Source: Mesorhizobium sp.
Lineage (GTDB): Bacteria > Pseudomonadota > Alphaproteobacteria > Rhizobiales > Rhizobiaceae
Assembly: GCA_004020875.1 (NCBI GenBank)
Contig: SAPZ01000005.1
Location: 279,323-343,322 of the forward strand
DNA: 64,000 bases
Reading direction: 5' to 3'
In this document: one piece after another, positions 56,594 to 60,706 of the stretch
Position numbering within the stretch: position 1 is the stretch's first letter
How the letters are laid out: each line of letters starts with the position of its first letter
Translations under genes and position numbers: made by a program
Notes under the pieces: model-generated
What the model was told of the DNA's origin: nothing
Databases searched by the model: none
What the model saw: the letters and a program-made list of their open reading frames with translations, nothing else

Positions 56594-56851
56594 ATGCAGA
56601 TATCCGTGACCGACGCCAAGGGACAATTGACTGAATTGGTGAGGCGCGCCGAGGCGGGCGATGAGATCATCTTGACCCGTCACGGTCACGCTGCCGTGCG
56701 TCTCGTGCCGATACGATCCGTACCCGATCGAAAGCACCGCCGGGGTTTGCTGCAGGCCGCCCGGGCAGCGGGCGCGGCGAAGGCCGGTGCCGGTCCCTCC
56801 GCGGCACGCAGCCAGGATTTCCTCTACGGCGATGAGGGCCTGCCGGAGTGA
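56594..56851 (+). CDS. Phd/YefM-type antitoxin (VapB partner)
   Basis: 85 residues: MQISVTDAKGQLTELVRRAE, then DEIILTRHGHAAVRLVPI, the Phd/YefM DNA-binding fold. The C terminus is variable. It pairs with the PIN toxin, whose GTG overlaps its TGA (GTGA). The two palindromes upstream suggest that it represses its own promoter. Confidence 0.92.
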   Translation: MQISVTDAKGQLTELVRRAEAGDEIILTRHGHAAVRLVPIRSVPDRKHRRGLLQAARAAGAAKAGAGPSAARSQDFLYGDEGLPE

Positions 56852-57231
56852 TTGTCGTCGACACCTCAGCCTTGATGGCCATCGTCCTCGACGAGCCGGC
56901 GGCGGATGACTGTGTCGCCGTGCTCGAGGCGGAAGACGACCTTCTGATATCGGCAGGAACCGTCGCCGAGCTCCTGATTGTCGCGGCGCGGAGAGGCGTG
57001 GCCGAGGAGGTGCAGTCCCTGCTCGACGGGCTCGGCTTCGAGATCGTTCCTGTGACGGAAGGCGCCGCCCGACGTGTCGCTGATGCCCATGCGCAATGGG
57101 GAAAAGGCATCCACGCCGCGGCGCTCAATTTCGGCGACTGCTTTGCCTATGAGGTGGCAAAGGACCGGGCCTGCCGGCTGCTCTATGTCGGCGACGATTT
57201 CTCCAAGACCGACATCGAAGGCGTGATCTGA
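56848..57231 (+). CDS. vapC: VapC-type PIN-domain ribonuclease toxin
   Basis: 127 residues from an overlapping GTG start. PIN acidic residues: MIVVDTSALMAIVLDEP (Asp5), AELLIVAARRG (Glu), FGDCFAYEVA (Asp) and YVGDDFSKTD (Asp). It cleaves RNA, often tRNA or rRNA. The pair lies after hdaA and before a repeat. Confidence 0.93.
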   Translation: MIVVDTSALMAIVLDEPAADDCVAVLEAEDDLLISAGTVAELLIVAARRGVAEEVQSLLDGLGFEIVPVTEGAARRVADAHAQWGKGIHAAALNFGDCFAYEVAKDRACRLLYVGDDFSKTDIEGVI

Positions 57232-58671: not shown

Positions 58672-59352
58672 ATGAAATACATTCTGGCAGCGGTGATGCT
58701 GGGCGCCACTCTTACGTCCGCCATGGCGGCTGATGTTGTGAACGAACTTCCGGTCGCCTCCACGTATGACTGGAGTGGTGGGTACATTGGGGGCCAAATC
58801 GGCTATGCTTGGGGACGGGACCACATCGAGGACGAATTGGTAACCGGTGGCGGAACGGATTACTCTGATAGTTTCCGGGTTCGCGGTGTAACCGGAGGCA
58901 TTTTCGCTGGTTATAACATGCAGTGGGGCAACATCGTCGGCGGCATCGAAGGTGACATCGAGGCGTCCGGGATCGTCGGCCACAATCCTAACTGGCCGTT
59001 CGGAACGGATGACAATACTCATGTCGACGCTCAGGGCTCGCTGCGTGGCCGCTTGGGCTACGCAATCGATAACTGGATGCCATACGTGACGGGCGGCTTG
59101 GCCTTGGGAGATATTCACACGAAATTCAAAGATGGCGCGGCCACGGACTCTAAGTCCCAGATTAAAGCTGGCTGGACACTCGGTGCTGGTGTCGCTTACG
59201 CCATCAACAGGAATTGGTTCGCTCAGGTGGACTATCGGTACACGGATTTCGGCAAAGTTACGACCGCCACCACCAATACCGACTCTTCTTATGTCGAACA
59301 CGAGCACGTCAAGACCAACGAGGTCAGGATCGGCATCGCATACAAATTCTGA
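58672..59352 (+). CDS. Omp25/RopB-like outer membrane beta-barrel protein (second)
   Basis: 226 residues. Signal peptide MKYILAAVMLGATLTSAMAA, then YDWSGGYIGGQIGYAWGRDH, GGIFAGYNMQWGNIVGGIEG, LRGRLGYAIDNWMPYVTGG, WFAQVDYRYTDFGK and the final VRIGIAYKF with a terminal Phe. It matches the porin at 12258 in type but is clearly different in sequence. Probably an 8-stranded barrel. Confidence 0.92.
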   Translation: MKYILAAVMLGATLTSAMAADVVNELPVASTYDWSGGYIGGQIGYAWGRDHIEDELVTGGGTDYSDSFRVRGVTGGIFAGYNMQWGNIVGGIEGDIEASGIVGHNPNWPFGTDDNTHVDAQGSLRGRLGYAIDNWMPYVTGGLALGDIHTKFKDGAATDSKSQIKAGWTLGAGVAYAINRNWFAQVDYRYTDFGKVTTATTNTDSSYVEHEHVKTNEVRIGIAYKF

Positions 59353-59671
59353 TAGTCGCCCGCGACGGCTCTGACGAGCCGCGGGCCGGCGAAGCCCTAA
59401 GTGCAACGTCGGCAACAGTCGGAGAATGCGCGGGCGCTTCTGAACCGGACTGAACTTCTCTTGGAGCCAAAAGCACCTGAGCGGAGTGCCGATACGTGAT
59501 TTCGAGGGCGGCAGGAGAATCTTGCGCCCGGAAAGAGTAGTCGCCTCCGCCAGGCTTTAGAAGCACCCGGCGTGGTCATTGGCGACTGCGCCGGACCGTT
59601 CCTGTTCCACATCTGAAATAAAAAGCCCGCCGACCGAAGGACGTCGGGCTTTGTGCATAATTTGGACTGGT
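59353..59671. other. Intergenic region between the porin and the micropeptide pair
   Basis: No gene is supported in 59353-59620. The micropeptide terminator lies at 59621-59653. Confidence 0.5.
59621..59653 (-). terminator. Terminator of the micropeptide unit
   Basis: AAAGCCC-CGAC pairs with GTCG-GGCTTT with a small bulge, loop near 59635-59641. On the minus strand it is followed by a T-rich run (TTTTTATTT). It lies 20 bases beyond the stop of the second peptide. Confidence 0.78.
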
Positions 59672-59761
59672 TCAGTCGATCGGTCCCGATAGCGATAGGG
59701 CCACAACTGATCCCAGGCGCTCTCGCTTGCGCAGAATAGGCTTCTCGTAAGTCTTCTTCAT
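59672..59761 (-). CDS. Micropeptide 2, RiPP-precursor-like (29 residues)
   Basis: ATG 59761 to TGA 59672. It begins MKKTYEKPILRKRERLGSV and ends with a hydrophobic/Ser core (VALSLSGPID). The N terminus is nearly the same as in the upstream peptide (MKKxYEKPxLxKRERLxSV), and the Y-x-x-P-x-L pattern resembles the leader motif of lasso-type RiPP precursors. Its ATG overlaps the TGA of the upstream peptide (TGATG), so the two are translationally coupled. No modifying enzyme is seen nearby. The terminator follows 20 bases downstream. Function is inferred only. Confidence 0.68.
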   Translation of the reverse strand: MKKTYEKPILRKRERLGSVVALSLSGPID

Positions 59762-59853
59762 CAGCCGATCACCTTCGACGGAAGGAAGACCGCGGTGACG
59801 CTGTTGAGGCGTTCGCGTTTGGTCAGCACAGGCTTTTCATAGACTTTCTTCAT
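59761..59853 (-). CDS. Micropeptide 1, RiPP-precursor-like (30 residues)
   Basis: ATG 59853 to TGA 59761. It begins MKKVYEKPVLTKRERLNSV and ends TAVFLPSKVIG. The shared leader-like half and different C-terminal halves are what is expected of two precursor paralogues. GGGGA lies about nine bases upstream of the ATG. A promoter-like TTGACA is at 59914-59919. Its stop overlaps the start of the next peptide. Such short genes are usually missed by annotation. Confidence 0.68.
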   Translation of the reverse strand: MKKVYEKPVLTKRERLNSVTAVFLPSKVIG

Positions 59854-60208
59854 GCGGTAGGTCCCCAAGTTGCCCTCAAAAACACCGCAGAAATGGCCTG
59901 AGCAACCGACGGTTGTCAAGACAGACCCGCCGGCATGTGGGTCCGGGGGTGCGGTTGGCGCAGAGGGGTTTGCGGCGTTCCATGAGACATTGAACGCAAG
60001 AGAAGATCAGGCTGGGCTCTGCCCTTCCTTATCAGGCCCCACACTCCGGATGTGTTATGGCGTATAGAGCGTACGCCCGGAAGCCAACACATGGCAGGGG
60101 TCCTGATCCGCCTCAATATAGCAGTGTTAAAGAGCGCCATTGCTCGGTTTCGTTGACAAGCGGCGGCACCTGCTGTTGACTTCCCTTGGGACAATTGGGG
60201 TTTTGCAG
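59854..60208. other. Divergent intergenic region between micropeptides and YbjN-like gene
   Basis: 355 bases. It holds the minus-strand promoter-like sequence above. The right part, up to 60208, has no supportable gene; a longer upstream start for the YbjN-like gene (60140) is not favoured. Confidence 0.5.
59891..59919 (-). promoter_or_regulatory. Promoter-like sequence with overlapping palindrome, micropeptide unit
   Basis: A consensus -35 TTGACA (59919-59914, minus strand), a 17-base spacer and a weak -10 (CCATTT, 59896-59891). A perfect palindrome CAACCG-A-CGGTTG (59903-59915) overlaps the -35, a possible operator. No in-window regulator is linked to it. Confidence 0.5.
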
Positions 60209-60706
60209 ATGGCACGCTTGGCACGCGTCATAGCTTTCGCATTTGCATTGGTTCTTTCTCGTCTGCCGGCATCTGCGCAAGACAAGGCCGGCGACAAGCC
60301 TGAGGTTCTCACGAAGGTCACGCTCGAAGATATCAGGGATGCCCTGCAGAACGCCGGCTATCGCGGCCAGATCAAGAACGACAGCACCGGCGAGTATGTA
60401 TCGAGCGCCTCGGGCGGACAGAATTTCTTCGTCAGCCTTGGCGGATGCGATGACCAGAAGGTTTGCAAGACGCTCTTGGCAGAGACTGCAGGGTGGACTC
60501 CCAAAACACCTTTGACGGTGGACGGTCTAGACGCATTCGACTGGGACAATGCCGGCTGGCTCACGGTCGTGAAGTATAAGGACGGCAAATATTACGCCAA
60601 CTATCGGGTGACACTGGTGGGCGGAGTGACCAAGGCCTGGCTGCAGTCAAACCTGGAAGGCTTTGCCACCACGACCGAAAATTTCGCAGCCTTCATGCAA
60701 AAATAG
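60209..60706 (+). CDS. Exported YbjN-domain-like protein
   Basis: 165 residues. Signal peptide MARLARVIAFAFALVLSRLP, cleavage near ASAQ. The mature domain: LEDIRDALQNAGYRGQIKND, FFVSLGGCDDQKVCKTLLAE, then VKYKDGKYYANYRVTLVGGV, typical of YbjN-type domains with a C/C pair. ATG 60209 gives the signal peptide. Role unknown. Confidence 0.82.
   Translation: MARLARVIAFAFALVLSRLPASAQDKAGDKPEVLTKVTLEDIRDALQNAGYRGQIKNDSTGEYVSSASGGQNFFVSLGGCDDQKVCKTLLAETAGWTPKTPLTVDGLDAFDWDNAGWLTVVKYKDGKYYANYRVTLVGGVTKAWLQSNLEGFATTTENFAAFMQK

Follow-up and report, generated by a model that had tools for sequence, protein, structure and literature searches.

A pair of overlapping genes for peptides of only 30 and 29 residues, found on contig SAPZ01000005.1 of a Mesorhizobium sp. 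(assembly GCA_004020875.1), raises the question of what such small products are and which enzymes, if any, act on them. The window, which is the whole stretch of 64,000 nucleotides that was analysed (positions 279,323 to 343,322 of the contig), holds no evident partner. The first-pass annotation of this DNA had described the pair as orphan tandem micropeptides whose shared half resembles the leader of a ribosomally synthesised and post-translationally modified peptide (RiPP), with the Y-x-x-P-x-L pattern of lasso peptides, and had left the choice between peptides served from elsewhere and unmodified peptides with a new role. It had also proposed a search for homologues, a search for distant RiPP recognition element (RRE) and leader peptidase genes in the same genome, and an analysis of coding constraint. 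We give a probability of about 0.75 to the reading that the two genes encode precursors of a RiPP pathway that derives from the lasso pathway, lacks its cyclase and acts in trans on many dispersed precursors. What can be read from sequence is the peptide family, the leader spacing, the universal Ser, the enzyme set, the lack of a cyclase match and the co-distribution.

Leaders and cores of the peptide family

Both open reading frames (ORFs) are present on the minus strand and overlap by one base within TGATG, as described. They have the common leader MKKxYEKPxLxKRERLxSVxA and diverge after it, and the division into a shared half and different C-terminal halves holds throughout the family, where the leader is nearly constant and the cores are variable. 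The two genes are more than chance ORFs, as the leader recurs across 141 different coding sequences (CDS) in the fetched loci, corresponding to 137 peptides and 130 unique cores; one of the 137, from L192, is weak against the leader consensus (7/17) and was retained. A search profile built from 22 such peptides matched 83 of 119 genomes of the genus, with 1–20 copies each, where copies per genome are profile matches and not individually read precursors. The source genome (G000) has 10 matches, on contigs C24, C28, C39, C44, C50, C58 and C61. In an order-level sample of 397 genomes the profile matched nine genomes outside the genus; the listing has 15 positives, six of them genus members, and with three more genus members without a match this leaves about 388 genomes of other genera. 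Two weak order-level matches were kept in the counts: G469 (E 2.8e-4), where leader patterns gave no peptide and no B2 leader peptidase was found, and G276 (E 3.2e-4), with no peptide by leader patterns in the fetched stretches and four enzymes present. Arrays of 3–6 precursors with near-identical leaders occur in three other genera. Searches of the peptides or the locus against NCBIfam, Pfam and Rfam gave sub-threshold matches or none.

Family-like leaders were also seen on Mesorhizobium plasmids (L402, L403), namely of sp. AR02 (two), sp. INR15 and M. ciceri WSM1271 (weak, E 0.3). The best place in each record carries no listed feature in three of four cases and coincides with a gene for a hypothetical protein in the remaining one, with the gene table incomplete; genes this short are easily missed. 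Some Mesorhizobium proteins are named 'putative RiPP precursor' by NCBI and might be members of the same family.

The coding constraint on the leader is plain. Mean codon entropy in the leader is 0.77, 0.74 and 1.45 bits at positions 1, 2 and 3, so that the third position varies most; the leader Tyr is invariant in 141/141 with both codons in use, and Pro is likewise fixed and uses four codons. A Shine-Dalgarno-like motif stands upstream of 129 of the 141 CDS, as compared to 14 of 141 at a control site 100 bp further up.

All leader and core positions given here assume cleavage after Ala21, a site inferred from lasso spacing. With this numbering, Y, P and L stand at −17, −14 and −12 in 124 of the 137 peptides and Ala at −1 in 134, and the residue at −2 is T in 77, V in 34, A in 23 and another in three. 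Lasso leaders have YxxPxL at −17 to −12 and Thr, more rarely Ile or Val, at −2 (PMC10368454). By sequence the family leader thus has the lasso arrangement, with Ala at −2 falling outside the published list of T, I and V.

The cores are 5–19 residues long (median 9). Their composition does not favour lasso products, which the leader pattern had brought to mind: the geometry of a lasso ring, G/A/S/C at position 1 and D/E at 7–9, is found in only three of the 130 unique cores. Ser is the sole residue present in every one of them (130/130; 2000 shuffles, mean 103.7, maximum 114), also after removal of similar cores (64/64; shuffle mean 52.9, maximum 62). It stands at core positions 3–5 in 118 of 130 (within-core shuffles: mean 56.7, maximum 74). 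The A1 profile contained core columns with majority Ser and may have favoured Ser-bearing cores; this is answered in part by the copies that, judged by position, were not the ones through which their locus was fetched, as Ser is present in 79 of their 79 unique cores.

An enzyme operon elsewhere in the genome

No RRE or B2 match lies inside the window, in agreement with the first-pass annotation; in the source genome the PqqD-family matches are on contigs C39 (two), C41 and C50, and both Transglut_core3 matches are on C39. The distant RRE and B2 homologues thus exist in the same genome, on C39. An operon there comprises a lasso-type RRE (B1), a Cys-His leader peptidase (B2) and a kinase of the PEPCK/HprK superfamily, with a nucleotidyltransferase (NTP_transf_5, PF14907) alongside. 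The word orphan is therefore right for the window and wrong for the genome, where a paralogous precursor is separated by about 140 bases from the nucleotidyltransferase gene and by about 3.1 kb from B2, and for other species, in which a canonical precursor stands directly upstream of B1. Likewise, peptides served from elsewhere are the better supported of the two options left at first, given matching RRE and leader peptidase genes in the same genome, and unmodified peptides are not supported.

The named records nearest to the operon are mostly from Mesorhizobium. Among 80 named loci, which were fetched by B2, B1 and B2 are present in all (NF033537 above cut-off), the nucleotidyltransferase is missing in two, and B1 is closely preceded by a precursor in 19. 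A lasso cyclase gave no tblastn match at the operon in 21 genus, eight order-level and 80 named loci, though many of these genomes have one elsewhere. The kinase is on the same strand as B2 and close behind it, its chosen start 0–45 bases past the end of the B2 match (17 loci), and the long kinase ORF starts within a stretch overlapping B2. It has the P-loop GK[ST], the DD motif, the conserved His and the fold that mark the HPr kinase/PEPCK superfamily. In the source genome a Wzz/GNVR gene lies near the operon.

A formyltransferase-like gene (L058:10958-12001) overlaps the nucleotidyltransferase gene; it is present in four of 21 genus regions and matched in 12 of the 80 named loci. On contig C50 of the source genome, a third RRE-like PqqD protein adjoins an HprK-like protein (L067:7197-10173; PF07475 E 1e-4, below cut-off). 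The genes around this RRE look like glycosyltransferases by eye and contig C50 has no B2 match; the stretch is possibly another kinase-linked peptide or sugar system.

Peptides and operon follow each other closely through the genus. With the operon B2 as query, one copy was found in each of 80 of the 119 genomes, and the two occur together in 80, are both missing in 36, and are split in three with a peptide only and none with B2 only (Fisher p 2e-27, a value inflated by the relatedness of the genomes, as are all Fisher p-values of this kind). The lasso cyclase fits the distribution of the peptides worse: counted over cut-off, both are present in 77 genomes and neither in 29, with six peptide only and seven cyclase only. 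A UvrC tree covered 110 of the 119 genomes (G007, G010, G014, G044, G047, G053, G065, G073 and G120 were left out). On this tree the B2 label changes at least eight times, and for the lasso cyclase the peptides change in the same direction in about 2.5 of seven pairs. At order level B2 is found in eight of the nine peptide-positive genomes outside the genus, as compared to one of 25 chosen peptide-negative genomes, and that lone B2 adjoins partial lasso cyclase, B1 and kinase matches. All eight B2-positive genomes have the order B1, B2, kinase, nucleotidyltransferase and no cyclase match, with a precursor beside it in five.

Proposed pathway, alternatives and local signals

The family has the general features of RiPPs as far as sequences can tell: a conserved leader, a variable core, and an RRE and tailoring enzymes that co-occur with it. 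Binding, phosphorylation, cleavage, nucleotidyl or sugar transfer, export and function are predictions. The discrete RRE B1 would first bind the YxxPxL...KRxxL leader, and the PEPCK/HprK-superfamily kinase, with the help of B1, would phosphorylate the conserved Ser early in the core, which usually stands at position 3–5. The Cys-His peptidase B2 would then cut after Ala at −1, with Thr, Val or Ala at −2, and release a linear core of 5–19 residues (median 9), to whose phosphate the NTP_transf_5 nucleotidyltransferase may add a further group. A formyltransferase-like step could be added in a minority of clusters. It is probable that a Ser in each peptide is phosphorylated by the operon kinase. 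The nucleotidyltransferase step is the least sure, since deletion of LppN had no visible effect in a heterologous host (PMC13381572).

It is conceivable, and in our judgement the chances are even, that Mesorhizobium and its relatives have a genome-wide, trans-acting RiPP hub, in which one set of RRE, peptidase, kinase and nucleotidyltransferase turns about 3–20 dispersed, diversifying precursors per strain into linear, Ser-phosphorylated and then nucleotidylated or glycosylated mini-peptides. Such a hub would run parallel to the linear polyphosphorylated peptides (LPPs) of Bacillota, as a route that derives from the lasso pathway, has no cyclase and uses another leader peptidase. TTGACA stands separately upstream of many of the precursors, and one enzyme set could therefore turn many local signals into distinct peptides.

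Several observations weigh against the trans-acting pathway or parts of it. Three genomes, G111, G128 and G130, hold one peptide match each without the operon B2 (the match in G111 is weak, E 2.9e-4); the single B2 that the family model finds in each adjoins a lasso cyclase. The tree offers only six independent pairs on supported branches, in four to six of which the peptides go the same way as B2 and in none the opposite, with a median sign-test p of 0.0625. Because independent events on this single-gene tree are few, much of the 80/36 split is shared descent. Most precursors lie away from the enzymes, and service in trans therefore rests on the shared leaders and the co-distribution. The Ser position varies among the cores, unlike Ser3 of LPP and Bsf. 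The kinase is below curated cut-offs (TIGR04352, 33.6 bits versus 200; PF07475, 18.3 versus 33.3), in nearly all sequences its P-loop opens with Ala in place of the Gly163 of BsfK, and the L200 kinase is without the first Gly of GxGK. In a structure search with the kinase model, the 50 matches listed are PEPCKs and include no HPr kinase. For B2 the third triad residue is uncertain, alignment column 124 being Asp in 22 of 29, and a search of solved structures with the B2 profile gave no PDB match.

An alternative nearer to the original lasso interpretation is that the peptides are lasso precursors and are processed in trans by the source genome's complete lasso cluster, which shares a contig with the cyclase-less operon at a distance of about 24 kb (C39, L066:8416-14223). 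The cluster has precursor, B1, B2, C, HprK-like and ABC genes, its NF033535 match reaches 762 bits, its own precursor also has YxxPxL at −17, and the genus shows a correlation between cyclase and peptides (77 both, 29 neither). We nevertheless find it very unlikely, as ring residues occur in 3/130 unique cores, seven cyclase-bearing genomes have no peptide match, and six genomes with 6–16 peptides have no cyclase over cut-off (of these, G084 is only 79% complete and G117 has a partial match with a TGA). Nor did the small ORFs listed for two stretches beside the lasso genes include any precursor of the present family. The partial cyclase match with its internal TGA lies at C1:3583056-3583820 in G117, a genome with seven peptide matches and the cyclase-less operon. 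That the peptides are true members of the Bacillota LPP family, horizontally acquired, would explain a functional gene set that is the same apart from the peptidase (RRE, HprK-like kinase, NTP transferase, no cyclase), a YxxP leader and the context of a polysaccharide locus (PMC13381572). The peptidase is however of the lasso type B2, the LPP leader continues VLxHQxIxFETxxS and not LxKRxxL, and the authors call LPPs restricted to Bacillota (PMC13381572), which makes this quite improbable.

It is also unlikely, to a lesser degree, that B1 and B2 only remove the leader, and that the kinase and nucleotidyltransferase act elsewhere, for example on exopolysaccharide, the released linear peptides being unphosphorylated signals. 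Wzz/GNVR, sugar-transferase and Poly_export genes lie near both clusters in the source genome (around the lasso cluster UDP-glucose dehydrogenase, GT2, sugar transferase and Poly_export), and deletion of LppN left the detectable products unchanged (PMC13381572). Against this, the kinase sits tightly behind B2, Ser alone is universal in the unique cores and is placed near the leader, and core Ser3 is phosphorylated by BsfK and LppK (PMC10368454, PMC13381572). The ORFs are very short, three of four best plasmid places have no listed gene, and all NCBIfam and Pfam matches are sub-threshold, as one would expect of unmodified regulatory or upstream peptides with an incidental likeness to RiPP leaders. 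Such an explanation is hardly credible in view of the near one-to-one co-distribution with a lasso-type RRE and B2 operon, the adjacency to B1, the lasso spacing of the leader and the variable core with its universal Ser.

The signals around the two genes are collected in Table 1. The terminator and the consensus −35 with an overlapping palindrome that had been reported are both there. A promoter scan of 59340-60240 found no site at or above threshold, and only the −35 is convincing for that reason. Of 114 non-redundant regions upstream of family members, 54 contain TTGACA (shuffle mean 3.4). Two octamers, TAACGCAT and TAGCTTAC, were found in 10 of these 114 regions each (shuffle mean 0.1) and are perhaps a shared element of related arrays. 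Elsewhere in the window, at 56594-57231, two neighbouring ORFs resemble, by eye, a toxin-antitoxin pair of the Phd/VapC type.

Table 1. Position in the window of the two precursor genes, their predicted parts and the flanking signals.
Feature	Position	Strand	Remarks
Precursor gene 1	59761..59853	minus	MKKVYEKPVLTKRERLNSVTA, predicted cleavage, VFLPSKVIG, stop; 30 aa, ATG at 59853
Leader of precursor 1	59791..59853	minus	Y −17, P −14, L −12, T −2, A −1; spacing as in PMC10368454
Predicted core of precursor 1, VFLPSKVIG	59764..59790	minus	Ser at core position 5; cleavage site inferred
Precursor gene 2	59672..59761	minus	MKKTYEKPILRKRERLGSVVA, predicted cleavage, LSLSGPID, stop; 29 aa, ATG at 59761
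Leader of precursor 2	59699..59761	minus	16/21 residues match B1-adjacent precursors of genomes G105 and G074
Predicted core of precursor 2, LSLSGPID	59675..59698	minus	Ser at core positions 2 and 4; cleavage site inferred
GGGGA, ribosome-binding-like site of precursor 1	59862..59866	minus	family-wide Shine-Dalgarno-like motif, 129/141
TTGACA, −35-like element	59914..59919	minus	from sequence
Palindrome with odd centre, CAACCGTCGGTTG	59903..59915	minus	overlaps the −35-like TTGACA; possible, putative operator
Terminator-like hairpin, then T-tract	59630..59647	minus	fold of the stretch, z −2.1

Comparison with known systems

The closest system is that of the LPPs, described as Bacillota-restricted and with a leader peptidase like signal peptidase I (PMC13381572, Popov et al. 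2026). The two have in common a discrete RRE, an HprK-like kinase, an NTP transferase, the lack of a macrolactam cyclase, a YxxPx[LV] leader with a conserved N half and a variable C half, a polysaccharide-locus neighbourhood and co-residence with a lasso cluster, and core Ser3 is phosphorylated by the kinase in LPP (PMC13381572). They differ in the leader peptidase, here B2 and there a signal-peptidase-I homologue, and in the host, here Alphaproteobacteria. Only YxxPx[hydrophobic] is common to the leaders (LxKRxxLxxVTA here, YxxPxVLxHQxIxFETxxS in LPP). The precursors read here have 26–43 residues as compared to 35–200, and operon-bearing genomes have 3–20 matches, mostly dispersed, where LPPs have 1–3 per cluster (PMC13381572). 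The archaeal-type signal peptidase I of LPPs (TIGR02228) is over cut-off in none of 29 genomes, with two weak matches (25.2 bits) on contigs other than that of the cluster. As for an MsbA-like transporter, the lasso ABC transporter query had no full-length match in 21 genus regions of 16–20 kb; partial matches lie outside the block from B1 to the nucleotidyltransferase in L058 and L137, and a match of any length was found in two of the 80 named loci.

The Bsf system of Bradymonas, which makes a phosphorylated lasso peptide, has YxxPxL at −17 to −12, tolerates residues other than Thr at −2, and combines B1, B2 and an HprK-like kinase with the same signature of H, GK[ST] and DD (PMC10368454). 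Its kinase phosphorylates core Ser3, greatly enhanced by B1 (PMC10368454), and a Ser near the core start is the predicted target here. Bsf has however a cyclase and a Gly1/Asp8 core, whereas the operon loci examined here gave no cyclase match and ring residues are found in 3/130 cores. The open PMC papers searched hold no description of the present system; subscription papers and preprints are outside that coverage.

Lasso tailoring of the paeninodin/pseudomycoidin type consists of an HprK kinase and a nucleotidyltransferase, and the same pair of enzyme families (PF14907 and HprK-like) is found here, without a ring and with dispersed precursors. The dispersed precursors have a parallel in the prochlorosins, where ProcM alone acts on many precursors that combine a conserved leader with variable cores and of which many are encoded at a distance from its gene. 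These are lanthipeptides in their chemistry, with unrelated enzymes and longer leaders.

We rejected membership among the lasso peptides on cyclase proximity, cyclase co-distribution and core geometry, and membership among the LPPs on signal peptidase, transporter and leader motif, keeping the likeness to LPP. The results suggest that Alphaproteobacteria, like Bacillota with their other peptidase, possess a lasso-like enzyme set (B1, leader peptidase, kinase, nucleotidyltransferase) that has no cyclase. What looked like two isolated micropeptides becomes part of a testable pathway whose substrates number several to many per genome in a nitrogen-fixing genus. The system also raises a question of specificity, as one genome has two RRE systems whose leaders have identical YxxPxL spacing, a question of pathway interference like that studied in Bacillota. 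Since the LPP peptidase is over cut-off in none of the 29 genomes, B2 is in its place and the leader motif differs, we class the system as a new variant of lasso-derived RiPP with an LPP-like logic.
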